Both the position numbers and the translations under genes were made by a program. Below are positions 21,541 through 39,735 of a DNA stretch of 40,002 bases, piece after piece. Numbering within the stretch: position 1 is the stretch's first letter; the number at the start of each line of letters is the position of its first letter. Origin of the DNA: Kiritimatiellia bacterium (GTDB taxonomy: Bacteria > Verrucomicrobiota > Kiritimatiellia > JAAZAB01). Below the pieces are notes generated by a model. That model was not told the origin of the DNA. It saw only the letters and a list, made by a program, of their open reading frames with translations, and made no database searches. The stretch lies in the NCBI GenBank assembly GCA_028715905.1, contig JAQUQV010000023.1:1-40002 (forward strand), read 5' to 3'.

Positions 21541-23874
21541 ATGAATAAAAAAACCGACAGTTTGAAAGCAAAATCCGCCACCACCGGAGCGACGGAAATA
21601 GACCGGCTTCTGGGCGGCGTCATCGCCGGGGACAACATTGTCTGGGAAGTTGATTCAAGCGCCCCGGTTGAAAACCTGATTTCCTGTTTTCTGACCGCCT
21701 GCCGGAATGAAGAAATGCCGGTGGTCTACGTCAGTTTCAATCATTCGCCGCAGACCATCATCAACCGCTACAACCCAATCCTGCCCCCCCATTTGTTTAC
21801 GCTGATAGATTGCTTTTCTTCCGGAAAGGGAAACAACGATAAAATGTTCACGGGCTTTTTCAAATCGTCCGCCAACGCGAAAATCCCCAGGGCAAAACAC
21901 ATTGGCAATCCCGCCGACCCGGCAAACCTTCAGGATGCCCTGATCCGGCTGGGCGCCGAAAGCAATAAAACTTCCCGGTATGTCTTTGACAGTCTGACCG
22001 GCATGCTGGACTTATGGAAAGATGAAGACCAGGTGGTCAGATTTTTCGGCCATTTTTGCCCGCGGCTCTTTGACCTGAATACGATCGCCTGCTGGCTGCT
22101 TGAAAAAGACGCTCATTCAAGCCATTTCCTCGCCAAAGTGCGGCATATCACCCAGGTCGTGCTGGAAATCGCCCTGACCGACGGACGTTCCACCATTACC
22201 GTCAGAAAATCCTCCGGCCGTAAATGCGCTGAAATCGGAATTCCACTACGGTTTGATATGGACGGCGGACTTCTGGTTATCACGCCGGAATCGCGCGAAG
22301 GGCGCGAACTGGGCTTGTTACGGCGCGTAAGCGAAGTGCTGGGCAACGCCCTGACCCTGAACTCGTTTTTTGAGGGCATTATGGAAGCCATCGCCAACGA
22401 GCTGGGCATGATCAGGGGCACGCTGGTTACCCTGGACAAATCTTCCAATAAAATCAGGATCGCCTCCGCGCATGGTCTGTCGCGCGAAGAAAAAATGCGC
22501 GGAGAATACGCGTTCGGCGAGGGCGTGACCGGAAACGTCGTCAAGACCGGTATCCCGGAAGTGGTTCCGGACATCCTAAAAGACCCGCGCTTTCTTGACC
22601 GCACAATGACCCGCAAGCTTGACTTGTCGCAACCCATCGCCTTTATCTGCGTCCCGCTCCGCGTGGACAACGAAGTCGTCGGCGCCATCAGCATGGACCG
22701 GCCGTTTGCGGTCGCCGAAATACTGGAAAAGGACCTGCGGCTCCTGTCCATCGTTGCCGCGATTGTCTCGCAGGTCCTCAAGATCAACCGCATGATTTAC
22801 CTGGAAAAGGAGGAAATTCTCGCCCGGGACAAGACGCATTTGCGGGAACTGCGGAGCCGCTACCGGCTGGACAATGTTATCGGCGAAAGCAATGAAATCA
22901 AAAGGGTCCTCAACACGGCCGCCACGGCCGCAAAATCGCGCGCTTCCATCCTCGTTACCGGGGAAACCGGCACCGGCAAGGAATTGATCGCCAACGTTGT
23001 GCATTATAACAGCACGCGCGCCAACGGTCCGTTTGTCAAGGTGAACTGCGGCGCCCTGCCGGAAACACTGCTGGAATCGGAACTTTTCGGGCACGTCAAG
23101 GGCGCTTTTACCGGCGCCCTGCGGGACCGCGCGGGCCGTTTTGCGCTGGCCGGCGGCGGCACTATTTTTCTGGATGAAATAGGAGAAATGAGCCCGCGGC
23201 TTCAGGTTAAACTCTTGCGTATCCTCCAGGAAAGGGAATTTGAGCCGGTCGGAAGCATGCGGACGCTCACAACGGACGTGCGCGTGGTAACGGCAACCAG
23301 CCGAAATCTCCAGGATGAAATTAAAGCGGGGCGTTTCCGCGAAGACCTTTATTATCGGCTCAATGTCATTCCAATCCATCTGCCGCCGCTACGCGAACGC
23401 CGGACGGATATCCCCCTGTTGGTGAACTTTTTCCTGGAAAAATACAACCGTGAAAACAAAAAAAACGTCCGGAAAATGTCCCAGGAACTGCTGGACATCC
23501 TTCTGGATTATCCCTGGCCGGGCAACGTGCGCGAACTGGAAAACTGCATTGAACGCGCGGTCGTCTTGAGCACCGGCGACGCGCTCACGGAAAGCATGCT
23601 TCCCGCGGAAGTGCGCGATCACAAGCATATCGGGGGACTGCGGCGGATGAAAATTGCGCCGTCCAATGCCACAGCGATTGCCGCGGCAACCGAGCAGTTC
23701 TGCGAGGACGCCGGCGATCTGGCCGGGACGCGAACGCTCCTGCTCCAGACGGTTGAAAAATCCATTCTATCCTTCGCGCTCCGCCAGCGAATCAGCCAAC
23801 GCGAATTGGCCGGAAAACTGGGTTTAAGCCGGATGACTCTGCAAAACCGGCTGAAAAAATACGGCCTGAAATAA
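21541..23874 (+). CDS. Sigma-54 activator with degenerate KaiC-like domain, GAF, AAA+ and Fis-type HTH
   Basis: A 777-residue bacterial enhancer-binding protein. Residues about 1-245 resemble the RecA/KaiC/RAD55 fold: the opening TGATEIDRLLGGVIAGD matches the KaiC pattern (TGxxxLDxLLGGG), but the P-loop GxxGxGKT is replaced by VDSSAPVEN, so it probably cannot bind ATP normally. A GAF domain follows (about 260-415), as in NifA. The AAA+ domain (about 445-680) is intact, with Walker A GETGTGKE (about 475-482) and GAFTGA at 521-526, the loop that contacts sigma-54. The last 35 residues are a Fis-type helix-turn-helix (QRELAGKLGLSRMTLQNRLKK). It lies just upstream of a sigma-54 promoter and glnA on the same strand, so control of ammonium assimilation is the best guess. 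Confidence 0.88.
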   Translation: MNKKTDSLKAKSATTGATEIDRLLGGVIAGDNIVWEVDSSAPVENLISCFLTACRNEEMPVVYVSFNHSPQTIINRYNPILPPHLFTLIDCFSSGKGNNDKMFTGFFKSSANAKIPRAKHIGNPADPANLQDALIRLGAESNKTSRYVFDSLTGMLDLWKDEDQVVRFFGHFCPRLFDLNTIACWLLEKDAHSSHFLAKVRHITQVVLEIALTDGRSTITVRKSSGRKCAEIGIPLRFDMDGGLLVITPESREGRELGLLRRVSEVLGNALTLNSFFEGIMEAIANELGMIRGTLVTLDKSSNKIRIASAHGLSREEKMRGEYAFGEGVTGNVVKTGIPEVVPDILKDPRFLDRTMTRKLDLSQPIAFICVPLRVDNEVVGAISMDRPFAVAEILEKDLRLLSIVAAIVSQVLKINRMIYLEKEEILARDKTHLRELRSRYRLDNVIGESNEIKRVLNTAATAAKSRASILVTGETGTGKELIANVVHYNSTRANGPFVKVNCGALPETLLESELFGHVKGAFTGALRDRAGRFALAGGGTIFLDEIGEMSPRLQVKLLRILQEREFEPVGSMRTLTTDVRVVTATSRNLQDEIKAGRFREDLYYRLNVIPIHLPPLRERRTDIPLLVNFFLEKYNRENKKNVRKMSQELLDILLDYPWPGNVRELENCIERAVVLSTGDALTESMLPAEVRDHKHIGGLRRMKIAPSNATAIAAATEQFCEDAGDLAGTRTLLLQTVEKSILSFALRQRISQRELAGKLGLSRMTLQNRLKKYGLK

Positions 23875-23897
23875 CCTCCCCCATCGCCGCCGCAAAA

Positions 23898-23918
23898 ATC
23901 GCCGAACAAGGGTTCGGC
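23898..23918 (-). repeat. Hairpin after the activator gene; fragment of the 32.6-kb palindromic element
   Basis: GCCGAAC-AAGG-GTTCGGC forms a 7-bp stem 27 bp after the stop codon. Reverse-complemented, 20 of 21 bases match 32629-32649, the first hairpin of the palindromic element there. It might also act as a terminator, since a T5 run follows 14 nt later, but that spacing is poor. Confidence 0.55.
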
Positions 23919-23937
23919 ACGTTTGCGCGTATTTTTA

Positions 23938-23962
23938 AAATTCCTATGCATTTAATTAGACC
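23938..23962 (+). repeat. 25-bp direct repeat, left copy
   Basis: AAATTCCTATGC followed by ATTTAATTAGACC; repeated at 24091-24115 with one mismatch. The two copies bracket the cloverleaf-like element. Confidence 0.75.
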
Positions 23963-24005
23963 CCCGATCGCGAAGCGCATCGGGGGCAACTATTATCCCG
24001 TTCGA

Positions 24006-24102
24006 CGTAGGGGCTTCGCTTGCGAAGCCCTTCCGGCGGGCGCCGTCAAGCGACGCCCCTACGGGATTTTCGGACGAACATATGTCTTTGAAATTACTAT
24101 GC
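24006..24102 (+). repeat. Cloverleaf-like palindromic repeat, copy A
   Basis: CGTAGGGGC (24006-24014) pairs with GCCCCTACG (24055-24063). Inside, GGGCTTCGC-TT-GCGAAGCCC (24011-24030) and GGGCGCCG-TCAAG-CGACGCCC (24038-24058, one mismatch) form two hairpins that compete with or stack on the outer stem. A conserved tail runs to 24102. Positions 24007-24102 match 39549-39644 at 93 of 96 bases. It contains no coding sequence, so if mobile it would depend on a transposase elsewhere. Confidence 0.8.
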
Positions 24103-24115
24103 ATTTAATTAGACC
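24091..24115 (+). repeat. 25-bp direct repeat, right copy
   Basis: Matches 23938-23962 except for one base (ATTACT versus ATTCCT). Its first 12 bases are also the end of the conserved tail of the cloverleaf-like repeat. Confidence 0.75.
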
Positions 24116-24161
24116 AGGTCTATTTGTTAGACCAGAAAACTAGACCGCCCGGCGTCGGCGC

Positions 24162-24181
24162 CAATAATAAATTTATTGTTG
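24162..24181. promoter_or_regulatory. AT-rich imperfect palindrome upstream of glnA
   Basis: A 20-bp imperfect palindrome around a perfect 12-bp core (AATAAATTTATT, 24166-24177), with CAAT at the left and GTTG at the right. It may be a second activator site or a bend site; this is inference. Confidence 0.35.
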
Positions 24182-24185
24182 TAAT

Positions 24186-24201
24186 TATTTGCCGGCAAAT
24201 A
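24186..24201. promoter_or_regulatory. 16-bp perfect palindrome, candidate activator binding site for glnA
   Basis: TATTTGCCGGCAAATA is a perfect palindrome whose centre is about 80 bp upstream of the predicted sigma-54 start site. That is the usual distance for an enhancer-binding-protein site. The Fis-type regulator encoded just upstream is the candidate binder. Confidence 0.55.
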
Positions 24202-24248
24202 TCTTAAATTACAGACAAAGCAAAGGAGCGGCGTCATTTTTCCGGACT

Positions 24249-24264
24249 TGGCATAGTTCCTGCT
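24249..24264 (+). promoter_or_regulatory. Sigma-54 (-24/-12) promoter of glnA
   Basis: TGGCATAGTTCCTGCT matches the sigma-54 consensus TGGCACG-N4-TTGCW, with GG (24250-24251) and GC (24262-24263) exactly 12 bp apart. It is preceded by CT as is common. The predicted start is near 24275, about 70 nt before the glnA ATG. Confidence 0.75.
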
Positions 24265-24343
24265 TTTACTTAAATAGTAAATATTTTATCTGCCAATGGA
24301 ATCAAACGATCCAAAACAATCAGTCATGAGGTAAAAACAAAAA

Positions 24344-25708: not shown

Positions 25709-26842
25709 ATGTGGAATTACGATTTCCAGGATGAAAAAGACACAAGCGGCTGCGCAATTTCCGGCATCATGTCCGAGACGGGGCAACGGTTCTCCAGCGA
25801 TCTCATCATCCGTTCCATTGCCAACATGCGGGAAAGGTCAAACGGTCTCGGGGGAGGCTTTGCCGCCTACGGCATATATCCTCATAATCCCGATGCTTAT
25901 GCGCTCCACGTCATGTTTGATCAACCAGGCGCGCAAGAAAATACCCGGCAGTATCTGAAACAAAATTGCGAGATTATCGGTGACGAACCGATCCCGACCA
26001 AACCGAGCGAAACCGTCAGGTCCCGCCCCCTGCTCCACCGTTATTTTGTCAAGGCGGGCGCGCTCCTGAAGGAACGTTATTACGATGAAGACGAAAACGA
26101 CCTGATCGTGCGGGTGGTCATGCACATCAACAGGTTCGTTGAGGGCGCCTTTGTGTTTTCCTCCGGAAAAAACATGGGGATATTCAAGGGCGTGGGATAC
26201 CCTGAAGACATCGGACGTTTTTTCCGGCTGGAAGAATACCGGGCCTATCTCTGGCTTGCCCACGGCCGGTTCCCCACCAATACCTCCGGCTGGTGGGGCG
26301 GAGCGCATCCATTTGGACTCCTGGACTGGGCCGTGATTCACAACGGTGAAATTTCATCCTATGGGATCAACCGGCGCTACCTGGAAAATTTCAACTATTT
26401 CTGCTCGTTGCGCACCGACACGGAGGTCATCACATACCTTTTTGACCTGTTGATGCGGAAACAGAAACTGCCGCTTGAAATCACGGCCTGCATCCTCGCG
26501 CCCCCCTTCTGGACGCAGATCGGCCGCCGGAGCCGCGAGGAGCAAAAACTGATTGCCGCCCTCCGGATGGTCTACGGAGGAGCGCTTTTGAACGGCCCTT
26601 TCAGCATCCTGGTCGGCGGGCCGGACGGCATGATCGGCCTGAACGACCGAACCAAACTGCGCCCAATGGCGGCCGCCCGGAAAGACGACATGGTTTATAT
26701 CGCCAGCGAGGAAGCGGCCATCCGTTCGGTCTGCCCCGCTCCGGACAGCCTCTGCCGCGCCGAGGCGGGAAAACCGCTTACGGGAACATTGAGAGAAAAG
26801 CCCCATGCAAACAAAAAAATGGCTTGTCCAGCCCGAATTTGA
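25709..26842 (+). CDS. Glutamate synthase amidotransferase subunit (class II, GltB domain 1)
   Basis: The 377-residue protein matches the stand-alone glutaminase domain of split (archaeal-type) glutamate synthase. It hydrolyses glutamine and passes ammonia to the synthase subunit. The nucleophile should be Cys15 (SGCAISGIM), implying removal of a 14-residue propeptide. Class II features follow: HGRFPTNTSGWWGGAHPF (Arg and substrate loop) and HNGEISSYG. The ATG at 25709 has an AAGGAA ribosome-binding site. The C-terminal tail overlaps the next gene by 38 bp. Related stand-alone domains occur in N-methylglutamate synthase and GlxB proteins, but the glnA neighbour favours glutamate synthesis. 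Confidence 0.87.
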   Translation: MWNYDFQDEKDTSGCAISGIMSETGQRFSSDLIIRSIANMRERSNGLGGGFAAYGIYPHNPDAYALHVMFDQPGAQENTRQYLKQNCEIIGDEPIPTKPSETVRSRPLLHRYFVKAGALLKERYYDEDENDLIVRVVMHINRFVEGAFVFSSGKNMGIFKGVGYPEDIGRFFRLEEYRAYLWLAHGRFPTNTSGWWGGAHPFGLLDWAVIHNGEISSYGINRRYLENFNYFCSLRTDTEVITYLFDLLMRKQKLPLEITACILAPPFWTQIGRRSREEQKLIAALRMVYGGALLNGPFSILVGGPDGMIGLNDRTKLRPMAAARKDDMVYIASEEAAIRSVCPAPDSLCRAEAGKPLTGTLREKPHANKKMACPARI

Positions 26843-28331
26843 AGTTACCCGCGACCCGGAACGTTGTATCCGCTGCCAGGTATGCGTCCGGCAGTGCGCC
26901 AACAACGTGCATCAATACGACGAAGAAGACGAGATGGTTTCTTCCGAAGGCGCCTTCTGCGTGGGATGCCACCGCTGTGCCGCGCTCTGTCCGACCGGCG
27001 CGATCAAAATCAACCAGTCCGAATTAAACTTCCGGCCCAACGCCAACTGGACGCCGGCCATGATCAGAAACGTCTATAAACAATCCGAGGGGGGCGGGAT
27101 ACTGCTCAGCTCAATGGGAAACGACCGCCCCTTTAAAAACTACTGGGACATGATCGTGCTGAACGCCGCCCAGGTCACGAACCCCTCCATTGATCCGCTC
27201 CGCGAGCCGATGGAACTAGCAACCAGTCTCGGACGGAAACCAGATATGGTTGAGGTTGAAAAAAACGGGCGCGGCTTCAGTCTCAAAACGAAGCTGGCGC
27301 AACAGCTTCACCTGGAAATTCCAATAATGTTTTCCGCCATGTCCTACGGCTCCATCAGCCTGAACGCCTCCGCGGCCCTGGCGCGCGCCGCCATGGAAGC
27401 CGGCACTTTTGCCAACTCCGGCGAAGGCGGACTGCACTGGTCGCTTCATCCTTACGCCGAACACATGATTGTCCAGGTCGCTTCCGGCCGTTTCGGCGTG
27501 AACGCCGAGTATCTGAACCGCGCCGCGGCCGTTGAAATCAAAATTGGGCAGGGCGCCAAACCCGGCATCGGCGGCCATCTGCCCGGAGAAAAAGTTGATG
27601 CTTCCATATCGGAAACCAGGATGATTCCGGAAGGAACCGACGCCATATCCCCGGCCCCGCATCACGACATTTATTCCATTGAAGACCTCCGCCAGCTGAT
27701 TACGGCCCTGAAGGAGGTAACCCGGAACGCAAAACCGGTCCTGGTTAAAATCGCGGCCGTGCACAACGTGGCGGCCATCGCTTCGGGATGCGTGTATGCC
27801 GGGGCCGACATCGTAGCCATTGACGGGTTCCGCGGCGGCACCGGCGCGGCGCCCGCCATGATCCGCGACAACGTCGGCATCCCCATTGAATTCGCGCTCG
27901 CGGCCGTGGACGAACGTCTGCGCCGGGAAGGCATCCGCAACCGCGCCTCGCTGGTCGCGGCCGGGGGATTGCGCTGCAGCGCCGACATCGTCAAGGCGAT
28001 CGCCCTGGGAGCCGACGCCGTTTATATCGCCACCGCCGCGCTCGTGGCCATGGGATGCCACCTGTGCCAGAAATGCTACACTGGAAAATGCAACTGGGGC
28101 ATCGCCACCCAGGACCCTTATCTGATGAAAAGATTGAATCCTGACACGGCCGTCAGAAGGCTGAAAAACCTGCTCCGCGGATGGGAACTGGAAATCAAGG
28201 AAATGCTCGGCGGCATGGGAATAAACGCCATTGAAAGCCTGCGCGGCAACAGGGAACACCTGCGCGGAGTCGGGCTGAACCAGACGGAACTGGACGCGCT
28301 TGGAATCAAAACGGCGGGAGCGGGAGCATGA
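26805..28331 (+). CDS. Glutamate synthase FMN-binding synthase subunit with N-terminal ferredoxin domain
   Basis: This is the catalytic subunit that reduces the 2-iminoglutarate intermediate to glutamate. It has 508 residues. The first 80 carry two 4Fe-4S ferredoxin motifs (CIRCQVCVRQC and CVGCHRCAALCPTG). The rest is the FMN (alpha/beta)8 domain with SAMSYGSISLNA, GEGG, KIGQGAKPGIGGHLPG, DGFRGGTGAAP and the Fe-S region CHLCQKCYTGKCNWGIATQ. The architecture is the archaeal/anaerobe form rather than the large proteobacterial GltB. Electrons probably arrive through the ferredoxin and FAD proteins encoded next. It overlaps both neighbours (38 bp upstream, 4 bp downstream). Confidence 0.92.
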   Translation: MQTKKWLVQPEFEVTRDPERCIRCQVCVRQCANNVHQYDEEDEMVSSEGAFCVGCHRCAALCPTGAIKINQSELNFRPNANWTPAMIRNVYKQSEGGGILLSSMGNDRPFKNYWDMIVLNAAQVTNPSIDPLREPMELATSLGRKPDMVEVEKNGRGFSLKTKLAQQLHLEIPIMFSAMSYGSISLNASAALARAAMEAGTFANSGEGGLHWSLHPYAEHMIVQVASGRFGVNAEYLNRAAAVEIKIGQGAKPGIGGHLPGEKVDASISETRMIPEGTDAISPAPHHDIYSIEDLRQLITALKEVTRNAKPVLVKIAAVHNVAAIASGCVYAGADIVAIDGFRGGTGAAPAMIRDNVGIPIEFALAAVDERLRREGIRNRASLVAAGGLRCSADIVKAIALGADAVYIATAALVAMGCHLCQKCYTGKCNWGIATQDPYLMKRLNPDTAVRRLKNLLRGWELEIKEMLGGMGINAIESLRGNREHLRGVGLNQTELDALGIKTAGAGA

Positions 28332-28765
28332 AACGCATCTACGTCAGGGAAGAATATTGTCTCGGATGCCGGTTGTGCGAAATAAACTGCATGGTCCGGC
28401 GCTCCAGGTCAAAGAAAATCATCAAGGCGTTCACCAGGGAACGCGATACGCTCCAGGCCTCCCTGCGAGTGGAAAACACCGGTCCGCTTTCCTTTGCCGT
28501 CCAATGCCGCCATTGCACCGACGCCCCCTGCATCGCGGCCTGCATAACCGGCGCCATGCGCCGCGACCCGCAGACAGGCGCGGTCGTCTGCGACGAAACC
28601 CGCTGTGCCGGATGCTGGAGTTGTATCATGGTCTGCCCCGCCGGCGCCGTCCAGCGCGGCCGGGAACACAAAGTTGTCTCAAAGTGCGATCTGTGCATGA
28701 GCGAAAACACGCCCGTTTGCGTCGTCAATTGCCCCAACGAGGCCCTGGTTTATGAAGAACGTTAA
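28328..28765 (+). CDS. Four-cluster 4Fe-4S ferredoxin-like electron transfer protein
   Basis: A 145-residue polyferredoxin of the HycB/DmsB type: four cysteine groups (CLGCRLCEINC, CRHCTDAPCIAAC, CAGCWSCIMVC, CDLCMSENTPVCVVNC) could hold four clusters. It most likely carries electrons between the FAD reductase encoded next and the Fe-S/FMN synthase encoded before. The start overlaps the upstream stop by 4 bp (ATGA), and the end overlaps the next gene by 14 bp, so equimolar expression is likely. Confidence 0.88.
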   Translation: MKRIYVREEYCLGCRLCEINCMVRRSRSKKIIKAFTRERDTLQASLRVENTGPLSFAVQCRHCTDAPCIAACITGAMRRDPQTGAVVCDETRCAGCWSCIMVCPAGAVQRGREHKVVSKCDLCMSENTPVCVVNCPNEALVYEER

Positions 28766-30059
28766 GACCGATTGCCTGATCATGGGAAATTCAACCGCGG
28801 CCATCGCCGCCGTGGAAGGGATACGTTCGCTGGACGGAAAATCATCCATCACGATCGCATCCCGGGAACGCCGCCGCGCCTATTCCCGCCCCCTGATTTC
28901 CGCCCTGCTCTCCGGCGGCATGGACGGCGAAAAAATGTATTACCGCTCGGAGGAATTCTACGCGGACCACAACGTCCGGCTGAAACTCGGCGCGGAAATT
29001 GTGCGCGTTGACGCGCAGAAACACCTGGCCTGGACGGCCGGCAACGGCGCCATTGAATTCGGAAAGTTTTTAATCGCTTCCGGCAGCCGGCCTTTCATTC
29101 CCCCGATTGAGGGCGTAAAAGCGCGCGGGATTTTCACGCATATGGATTGGGACGGCGCGCAGGCGGCGGCGGATTACATTGCGGACAACAACATCAACGG
29201 GCGCGAAAAATCACGCGCGGTCGTGATCGGCGGCGGCTTGATCGGCCTGAAGGCGGCGGAAGCCCTGCGCCGGCGCGGCCTGAACGTTGTTGTGGTTGAA
29301 ATGGCGGAACGTCTGCTTGCCTCCTGCCTCAACGCCCGCGCCGCCGGGATAATCGGGGAAACCATGGAGGCGGCGGGCGTTGAAATAATGTGCGGCGAGA
29401 CGATGGAACGCATTCTTGAAAAGGACGGCGCCGCGGACGGAGTGCGGCTGAAAAAAGGCGGCGAAATTCCGGCCCGGCTGGTTCTCATCGCCGCCGGCGC
29501 GGTACCGAACGTTGACATCTTCAGGGAAACGGAGATGAAAATTGACCGGGGGATTTTAATTGACGAGTATTGCCGCGCTTCCGTTCCGGATATATATGCC
29601 GCCGGAGACGCGGCGCAATACCGCGACACCATCAGCGGCCGTTCCTGCGTCATCCCCATATTTGCCAATGCCTTCAGTCAGGGCAGAACGGCCGGCATCA
29701 ACATGGCCGGCGGCCGCGCGGCGATCATGCATAATTTCGCCATGAATTCCGCGGAAATATTCGGCCTGCCGCTGGTTGCGCTGGGATTGAGCGCCGCCGC
29801 GCCGGCAAACGCGGAGGTGCTGGAAAAAACCGGCCGGAACGAACGGGCTTATAAAAGATTTGTACTTGACAACAACCGCATTGTCGGCGCGATTTTTGCC
29901 GGCGACATTGACCGGGCGGGCATCATTGCCGGAATCATGCGCCGGAAACTGGATATCGGCGGAATAAGAGATTTGCTTCTGACAAATGAATTCGGTCTGC
30001 TTTCACTGCCGGCCGAATACCGCAAATGCGTCGCCGCCGGGGAGGGAATTGAAGTATGA
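28752..30059 (+). CDS. FAD-dependent pyridine nucleotide oxidoreductase, likely glutamate synthase electron donor
   Basis: The 435-residue flavoprotein has the two-dinucleotide-fold plan of NirB-type/rubredoxin reductases. The first fold (CLIMGNSTAAIAAVEGI) is an FAD site with a degenerate GxGxxG. The second (VVIGGGLIGLKAAEAL) is a proper NAD(P) site. An FAD-contacting YAAGDAAQY lies near residue 285. It presumably plays the part of the GltD small subunit, passing electrons from NAD(P)H to the polyferredoxin. It is sandwiched by overlaps (14 bp upstream, 4 bp downstream) within the glutamate synthase genes. Confidence 0.87.
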   Translation: MKNVKTDCLIMGNSTAAIAAVEGIRSLDGKSSITIASRERRRAYSRPLISALLSGGMDGEKMYYRSEEFYADHNVRLKLGAEIVRVDAQKHLAWTAGNGAIEFGKFLIASGSRPFIPPIEGVKARGIFTHMDWDGAQAAADYIADNNINGREKSRAVVIGGGLIGLKAAEALRRRGLNVVVVEMAERLLASCLNARAAGIIGETMEAAGVEIMCGETMERILEKDGAADGVRLKKGGEIPARLVLIAAGAVPNVDIFRETEMKIDRGILIDEYCRASVPDIYAAGDAAQYRDTISGRSCVIPIFANAFSQGRTAGINMAGGRAAIMHNFAMNSAEIFGLPLVALGLSAAAPANAEVLEKTGRNERAYKRFVLDNNRIVGAIFAGDIDRAGIIAGIMRRKLDIGGIRDLLLTNEFGLLSLPAEYRKCVAAGEGIEV

Positions 30060-30808
30060 AAAAACGCTCCGCCGCGGAAATAAACGCCCGGGGATTTTCC
30101 TCGCAGGCGCTTAACGCCGGGGTGCGCGCGGCCGCGCAGGCCGGGACGGAGAAAATCATCCTGCGGAACGTCTGCGGACAACGTTACATCGGCGCCGGTT
30201 TGATGAACAAAACGGAAATCATCGTGGAGGGCACTCCGGGCAACGACCTGGCCTGCTTCATGGACGGCCCGCGCGTGGTCGTCCACGGCAACGCGCAGGA
30301 CGCGGCCGCCAACACCATGAGTTCCGGCGAACTCATAATTCACGGCGATGCCGGGGACGTGCCGGGCTATTCCATGCGCGGGGGCCGCCTGTTCATCAGG
30401 GGCGACGCCGGTTATCGCGTCGGCATCCACATGAAGGCTTACGCAAATCAGAGTCCCGTTATCGTGATCGGCGGCAACACAAAGGATTATCTCGGAGAAT
30501 ATATGGCCGGCGGAACGATTGTCGTGCTGGGATTGAATCAAACCAATGGAACTCCCCTGATCGGTGATTTTGTCGGGACAGGCATGCACGGCGGCGAAAT
30601 TTTTCTCCGCGGCGCGGTCAATGATTGTCTGCTCGGCCGCGAAACCGGCATCGCGGCAATATCCGGGACGGAACGCAGCCGGCTGACGAATATACTTATG
30701 GATTTTGCCGGGGAATTTAATATGATTCCAACCCAGCTGACCGGCCTTGATTTTATCAGGCTGGGTCCCGTTTCCTGCCGGCCCTACGGCCGGATTTACG
30801 TCTATTAG
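30056..30808 (+). CDS. Glutamate synthase GXGXG (GltB domain 3) subunit
   Basis: A 250-residue stand-alone version of the C-terminal beta-helix domain of GltB, a structural subunit. The repeated Gly-rich turns of the right-handed helix are clear (GAGLMNKTEIIVEGTPG, SSGELIIHGDAGDVPGYSM, AGGTIVVLG, GTGMHGGEIFLRG). It overlaps the FAD protein by 4 bp. With the amidotransferase and FMN subunits it completes the three parts of glutamate synthase alpha. It is the last gene of the coupled cluster; 78 bp separate it from pyrG. Confidence 0.9.
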   Translation: MKKRSAAEINARGFSSQALNAGVRAAAQAGTEKIILRNVCGQRYIGAGLMNKTEIIVEGTPGNDLACFMDGPRVVVHGNAQDAAANTMSSGELIIHGDAGDVPGYSMRGGRLFIRGDAGYRVGIHMKAYANQSPVIVIGGNTKDYLGEYMAGGTIVVLGLNQTNGTPLIGDFVGTGMHGGEIFLRGAVNDCLLGRETGIAAISGTERSRLTNILMDFAGEFNMIPTQLTGLDFIRLGPVSCRPYGRIYVY

Positions 30809-39542: not shown

Positions 39543-39735
39543 GGAGATGTAGGGGCTTCGCTTGCGAAGCCCTTCCAGCGGGCGTCGTCAAGCGACGCCC
39601 CTACGGGATTTTCGGACGAACATATGTCTTTGAAATTCCTATGCCTAAATCTACCTGTTGCGATTATGGTTTGCGAGCAAAGCTTTGATTTGCGAAGAAA
39701 ATTGCGCTTTAACCTGAACCCAGGACATTGCTTCT
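39543..39735. other. Spacer after the deaminase gene carrying palindromic copy B
   Basis: Contains repeat copy B (39549-39644) and then about 90 bp of AT-richer sequence with no feature that I can support. Confidence 0.5.
39549..39644 (+). repeat. Cloverleaf-like palindromic repeat, copy B
   Basis: GTAGGGGC (39549-39556) pairs with GCCCCTAC (39597-39604); the two inner hairpins are GGGCTTCGC-TT-GCGAAGCCC and GGGCGTCG-TCAAG-CGACGCCC, here with perfect stems. It matches copy A (24007-24102) at 93 of 96 bases, and the T at 39585 restores pairing that is broken in copy A. Confidence 0.8.

Follow-up and report, generated by a model that had tools for sequence, protein, structure and literature searches.

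The stretch from 21541 to 24264 of the window (the whole 40,002-nucleotide piece of DNA from a Kiritimatiellia bacterium) is probably a local sigma-54 control cassette, in which an activator acting at an inverted repeat (24117-24133) would drive glnA and a set of glutamate synthase genes from a promoter at 24249-24264. The activator encoded in this cassette is most likely a local nitrogen-responsive enhancer-binding protein. Its likely binding site, as judged from comparison with related genomes, is the conserved dyad GGTCTA-N5-TAGACC and not the palindrome that a preliminary description of this DNA had singled out. The features of the region are listed in Table 1.

Table 1. Features of the putative control cassette and of the genes behind it (positions in the window)
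Feature	Position	Strand	Evidence or remark
Sigma-54 activator, 777 aa	21541-23874	+	P-loop-less KaiC/RecA-fold, GAF, AAA+ with GAFTGA, Fis-type HTH; Pfam, translation
Predicted N-terminal KaiC/RecA-fold domain, residues ~11-250	21571-22290	+	Foldseek, weak PF06745, alignments
GAF domain	22357-22776	+	PF01590, E 3e-14
AAA+ sigma-54 interaction domain (Sigma54_activat)	22876-23379	+	PF00158, E 1e-70
Fis-type HTH	23743-23868	+	PF18024 and PF02954; recognition helix SRMTL conserved (alignment)
Multicopy repeat between regulator and candidate enhancer	23963-24092	.	23 core copies in genome
TAGACC half-site at edge of multicopy repeat	24110-24115	+	
Candidate enhancer (UAS), perfect dyad GGTCTATTTGTTAGACC	24117-24133	.	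GGTCTA-TTTGT-TAGACC; exact copy unique in genome
Additional TAGACC half-site	24141-24146	+	
Palindrome TATTTGCCGGCAAATA	24186-24201	.	unique in window; not conserved
Sigma-54 -24/-12 promoter TGGCATAGTTCCTGCT	24249-24264	+	GG 24250-24251, GC 24262-24263; predicted start ~24275
glnA, type I glutamine synthetase, 444 aa	24344-25678	+	
Split glutamate synthase, class-II amidotransferase subunit	25709-26842	+	PF00310
Split glutamate synthase, ferredoxin-like plus Glu_synthase subunit	26805-28331	+	PF01645, E 9e-141
4Fe-4S protein of operon	28328-28765	+	PF13247
Pyridine-nucleotide-disulphide oxidoreductase of operon	28752-30059	+	PF07992
Split glutamate synthase, GXGXG subunit	30056-30808	+	PF01493

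Promoter, regulator gene and proposed target genes

A -24/-12 promoter had been described in front of glnA, and it is found there: the box reads TGGCA-N7-TGC, with GG and GC ten bases apart as in sigma-54 promoters. A sigma-54 gene was also sought, and the genome of the window (G000) does encode rpoN (at C43). For the TGGCAYNNNNNNTGCW pattern, 0.26 matches would be expected in 40 kb, and the window contains two. The one outside the cassette, a sigma-54-like box (TGGCATAATCATTGCA, 2100-2115), lies within an open reading frame and is probably there by chance.

The gene upstream of glnA had been taken for a sigma-54 activator, which its GAF, Sigma54_activat and Fis-type HTH domains bear out. Its translation contains GETGTGKE, GAFTGA, and FLDEIGE, i.e., the GAFTGA and Walker motifs of bEBPs, and the C-terminal HTH is of the Fis type that bEBPs carry. 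Other sigma-54 activators are also encoded in this genome.

Glutamate synthase is encoded in 25709-30808 by separate amidotransferase, Fe-S/FMN-type, ferredoxin, oxidoreductase, and GXGXG genes. While GltB of the relatives is a single protein of 1500 aa, the glutamate synthase of the window is split and lies behind a 444-aa GlnA, for which no close relative was found within the family. The GSI usual in the family is encoded in G000 by a separate 483-aa open frame (at C5). amt was sought in this genome and not found.

Conservation of the cassette in related genomes

Orthologues of the regulator exist in four genomes of the same family. They are nearly full length in G005, G006, and G007 (65-67% identity) and split over two contigs in G003. 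In all five family genomes, which cover three genera, the regulator gene lies immediately upstream of a TGGCA-N7-TGC box and nitrogen genes. Part of the similarity of the four relatives is due to descent. A near-perfect sigma-54 box, TGGCACGAnTCGTGCT, directly follows the regulator in each of the four relatives. In G005, the box is followed by genes for an unknown protein, amt, GSIII, and gltB. G006 has amt and GSIII there, G007 has GSIII together with gltBD-like genes, and G003 has a GSI of 470 aa. As different genomes carry different target genes (GSI, GSIII, amt), the cassette of regulator, site, and promoter is more conserved than the operon behind it. The operon would have been exchanged behind the conserved cassette. 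The self-contained regulator-site-promoter unit proposed in the preliminary description thus recurs in four relatives, with a site other than the palindrome.

Two side observations concern the relatives. Their sigma-54 box is itself nearly palindromic (GCACGAnTCGTGC; L054 3430, L055 3507, and, on the reverse strand, L056 4006 and L057 2106), which may be either plain consensus or an overlapping operator. A protein of ~253 aa is encoded near amt in both G005 (L054 3496-4257) and G008 (L143 1831-2598) with the common motif ATPSTTYWTP; the G005 protein has no match in Pfam or NCBIfam.

Distant orthologues of the regulator (G336, G337, G070, and G142) were dropped as extra support, as no dyad-type site or nitrogen gene was found nearby; three of the four are on contigs of ~3-4 kb, and the G142 gene is cut off before the downstream region.

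A candidate enhancer at a fixed distance

The five upstream regions were aligned on the sigma-54 box, with -122 within 2 bp taken as the matching distance. The only word of at least 6 bp common to all five at this distance is TTAGACCA. TAGACC is located at -121 from the -24 box in G000, G005, and G007 and at -119 in G003 and G006. When the window sequence was shuffled, a shared 8-mer was found in 0 and a shared 7-mer in 1 of 5000 shuffles. The exact dyad GGTCTA-N5-TAGACC is present in the window and in G007. Elsewhere the left half-site is imperfect (GGTATA in G005) or shortened (GG-CTA in G003 and G006). Since 5-19% of shuffles contain a dyad with such an arm and spacer by chance, only the conservation of the site carries weight. 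Note that this dyad, ~60 bp upstream of the palindrome, is absent from the preliminary description.

Among 346 genomes of the class, the exact dyad with a sigma-54 box at 85-115 bp is found in two, both times beside the orthologous regulator, and the reversed control pattern has no match. Patterns of half-site plus promoter find the cassette in 5/5 genomes, along with a few other matches. In three genomes of the family where the regulator was not detected (G002, G004, and G008), sigma-54 boxes exist at amt with no TAGACC upstream. A wider regulon in G000 was considered and rejected: the nearer mismatched copies of the dyad inspected outside the cassette are all inside open reading frames.

It is reported that enhancers are typically found at 80-150 bp (PMC4987338) or at 100-250 bp, and that 65% of activators have one target operon (PMC6615313). 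The conserved dyad lies at a distance fitting bEBP sites (80-250 bp upstream of a -24/-12 promoter). Both this distance and the apparent one-operon regulon of the cassette would be typical.

The palindrome and the multicopy repeat

The perfect 16-bp palindrome is present as first described, with its centre ~81 bp upstream of the predicted start (~24275). It is mildly unusual: among dinucleotide shuffles, a perfect palindrome of at least 16 bp is present in 1.9% of those made from the 469-bp intergenic region and in 0.3% of those made from 24100-24249. It had been proposed as the recognition site of the regulator, with its conservation in related genomes as a check. No counterpart was found at the matching position upstream in any of the four relatives (4/4). 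The only other perfect copy of TATTTGCCGGCAAATA in the genome (C102:573) lies in a coding frame, where it is translated as IFAGKY, and the near copies that were inspected are also mostly within open reading frames. It was rejected as the regulator site on the grounds of this coding copy and the missing conservation. The upstream regions of G005 and G007 also contain TTGCC/GGCAA words, at other spacings.

The palindrome may bind something else. It could serve as an operator for another regulator or have a structural role in tuning the promoter, with the activator using the GGTCTA dyad. Its low chance expectation is consistent with such a role, and so is its location, as a repressor or a DNA-bending protein would act in the interval from enhancer to promoter. 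But it is not conserved in the relatives, and the genome has no second perfect copy that is clearly intergenic. We regard this role as unlikely.

Another alternative involves the multicopy repeat. Near-identical 23-bp direct repeats flank 23963-24092 and end in TAGACC, which makes the repeat a possible source of the half-sites at 23957 and 24110. The stretch 23963-24092 belongs to a dispersed stem-loop repeat with a CGTAGGGGCTTCGCTTGCGAAGCCC core (23 genome copies within 2 mismatches), which is also found at 39546-39644 of the window. If the TAGACC words belonged to this mobile repeat, their alignment with the relatives would be coincidence and glnA would be under another activator or a sigma-70 promoter. 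The half-sites at the repeat ends and the other sigma-54 activators encoded in the genome would fit. However, the dyad lies outside the repeat, its exact sequence is unique in the genome, and it is missing from the flanks of the other repeat copies examined. Furthermore, the relatives carry TAGACC at -119/-121 in an aligned region that has no repeat copy, and the simple sigma-70 patterns tried have no match in the intergenic region. A repeat origin of the whole signal is therefore improbable, more so than a second role for the palindrome.

Binding of the activator to the palindrome itself is the least probable alternative and can nearly be set aside: the distance would be acceptable, the chance expectation in the 150 bp before the promoter is low, and related words occur in G005 and G007, but the site has no counterpart in the relatives and its second copy, like most near copies, is coding.

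Comparison with NifA, AnfA, and NtrC

GAF, AAA+, and Fis-type HTH domains are shared by the regulator and NifA/AnfA. In Rhodobacter anfA-anfH, the regulator gene directly precedes its enhancer and sigma-54 promoter (PMC7294313), and the regulator gene of the window is likewise directly upstream of the candidate enhancer and the promoter. Unlike NifA/AnfA, the regulator has an additional N-terminal KaiC-like domain, and while NifA/AnfA target nitrogenase, the cassette of the window would target ammonium assimilation. The best NCBIfam model for the regulator is TIGR01817 (NifA), with a score of 495.4 bits against a curated cut-off of 528.85 bits.

NtrC enhancers of glnA are TGCACC-(A/T)4T-GGTGCA, a 17-bp dyad of the form 6-N5-6 upstream of a -24/-12 promoter (PMC4987338). 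The candidate enhancer has the same 6-N5-6 form with an A/T-rich spacer, and sigma-54 control of glutamine synthetase and amt genes would also be common to both systems. The half-site of the window, however, is GGTCTA instead of TGCACC, the regulator has no response-regulator receiver domain in Pfam, and one local target was found for it rather than a regulon. The known enhancer types were rejected for this region: there is no NifA-type TGT-N10-ACA in 23875-24343, and neither TAC-N6-GTA nor GCAC-type (NtrC) half-sites occur in the intergenic region. Because the regulator failed the NifA cut-off and site tests and lacks the receiver and site of NtrC, it is classified here only as a putative sigma-54 enhancer-binding protein, one of unusual predicted architecture.

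The KaiC-like domain

The first 250 residues of the regulator have no Pfam family above the cut-off; PF06745 (KaiC) matches four of the five regulator orthologues weakly, below it. A model of the N-terminal domain alone, built from nine sequences, has medium confidence (pTM 0.72). A Foldseek search with this model finds FlaH, PH0284, and KaiC (E 2e-7 to 1e-5, probability 1.00), pointing to a RecA/KaiC fold at a TM-score of ~0.5 on a medium-confidence model. Like these RecA-superfamily ATPases, the domain keeps the DSLTG motif (DSLTGM in the regulator of the window). Unlike them, the regulator family has no P-loop. Walker A (GxxGxGK[ST]) is absent in all nine aligned N-terminal domains, and its position is occupied by VDSSAPVE, as in the window, or VDSGVPVE. 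The domain also differs in matching below the Pfam cut-off and in being fused to a transcription activator. A literature search for a KaiC-like sigma-54 activator found none, a negative result of little weight.

A protein with a PPDK_N domain starts with a related domain (27% identity, E 3e-21 when the two sequences were compared). In G012, the gene of this protein overlaps with the last part of the gene for a GAF-type sigma-54 activator. This overlap suggests that the KaiC-like domain and GAF-type sigma-54 activators may be functionally linked. Proteins of ~850 aa with a PPDK_N domain are encoded at L188 3465-5996 and L190 3280-5892. The L188 protein has the related N-terminal domain, and its gene overlaps that of a GAF-type sigma-54 activator. 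Weak matches to the KaiC-like domain are found in more than 100 genomes of the class.

It is conceivable, if rather doubtful, that a distinct class of nitrogen regulators exists in which the P-loop-less KaiC-like domain, joined to GAF, serves as a sensor without catalytic activity, its signal being possibly adenylate or the energy state. The domain would be fused to the activator in the family of the window, or carried by an adjacent PPDK/PEP-synthase-type ATP-binding protein in other families of the class, and non-orthologous nitrogen operons would have replaced one another downstream of a cassette that retained its own enhancer.

Proposed mechanism and implications

In the mechanism proposed for the cassette, activator dimers would bind the GGTCTA-N5-TAGACC dyad via the Fis-type HTH, and the extra TAGACC half-sites beside it would perhaps be bound too. 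DNA looping would then bring the activator to sigma-54 RNA polymerase at the promoter, the dyad centre being ~150 bp from the predicted start. The AAA+ domain would open the promoter, so that glnA and the split glutamate synthase genes would be transcribed, presumably together. The GAF domain and the P-loop-less KaiC-like domain would probably gate this activity by nitrogen status. In relatives, the same cassette would drive GSI, GSIII, or amt.

By analogy, the cassette would operate in the manner of systems of the NifA/AnfA and NtrC types, through a candidate enhancer that is newly defined here. A guess from a single genome is hereby replaced by a concrete, testable candidate enhancer, GGTCTA-N5-TAGACC, and a regulator of unusual predicted architecture. 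The family would provide a case of a regulator, an enhancer, and a promoter that remain linked to each other in front of differing nitrogen genes.
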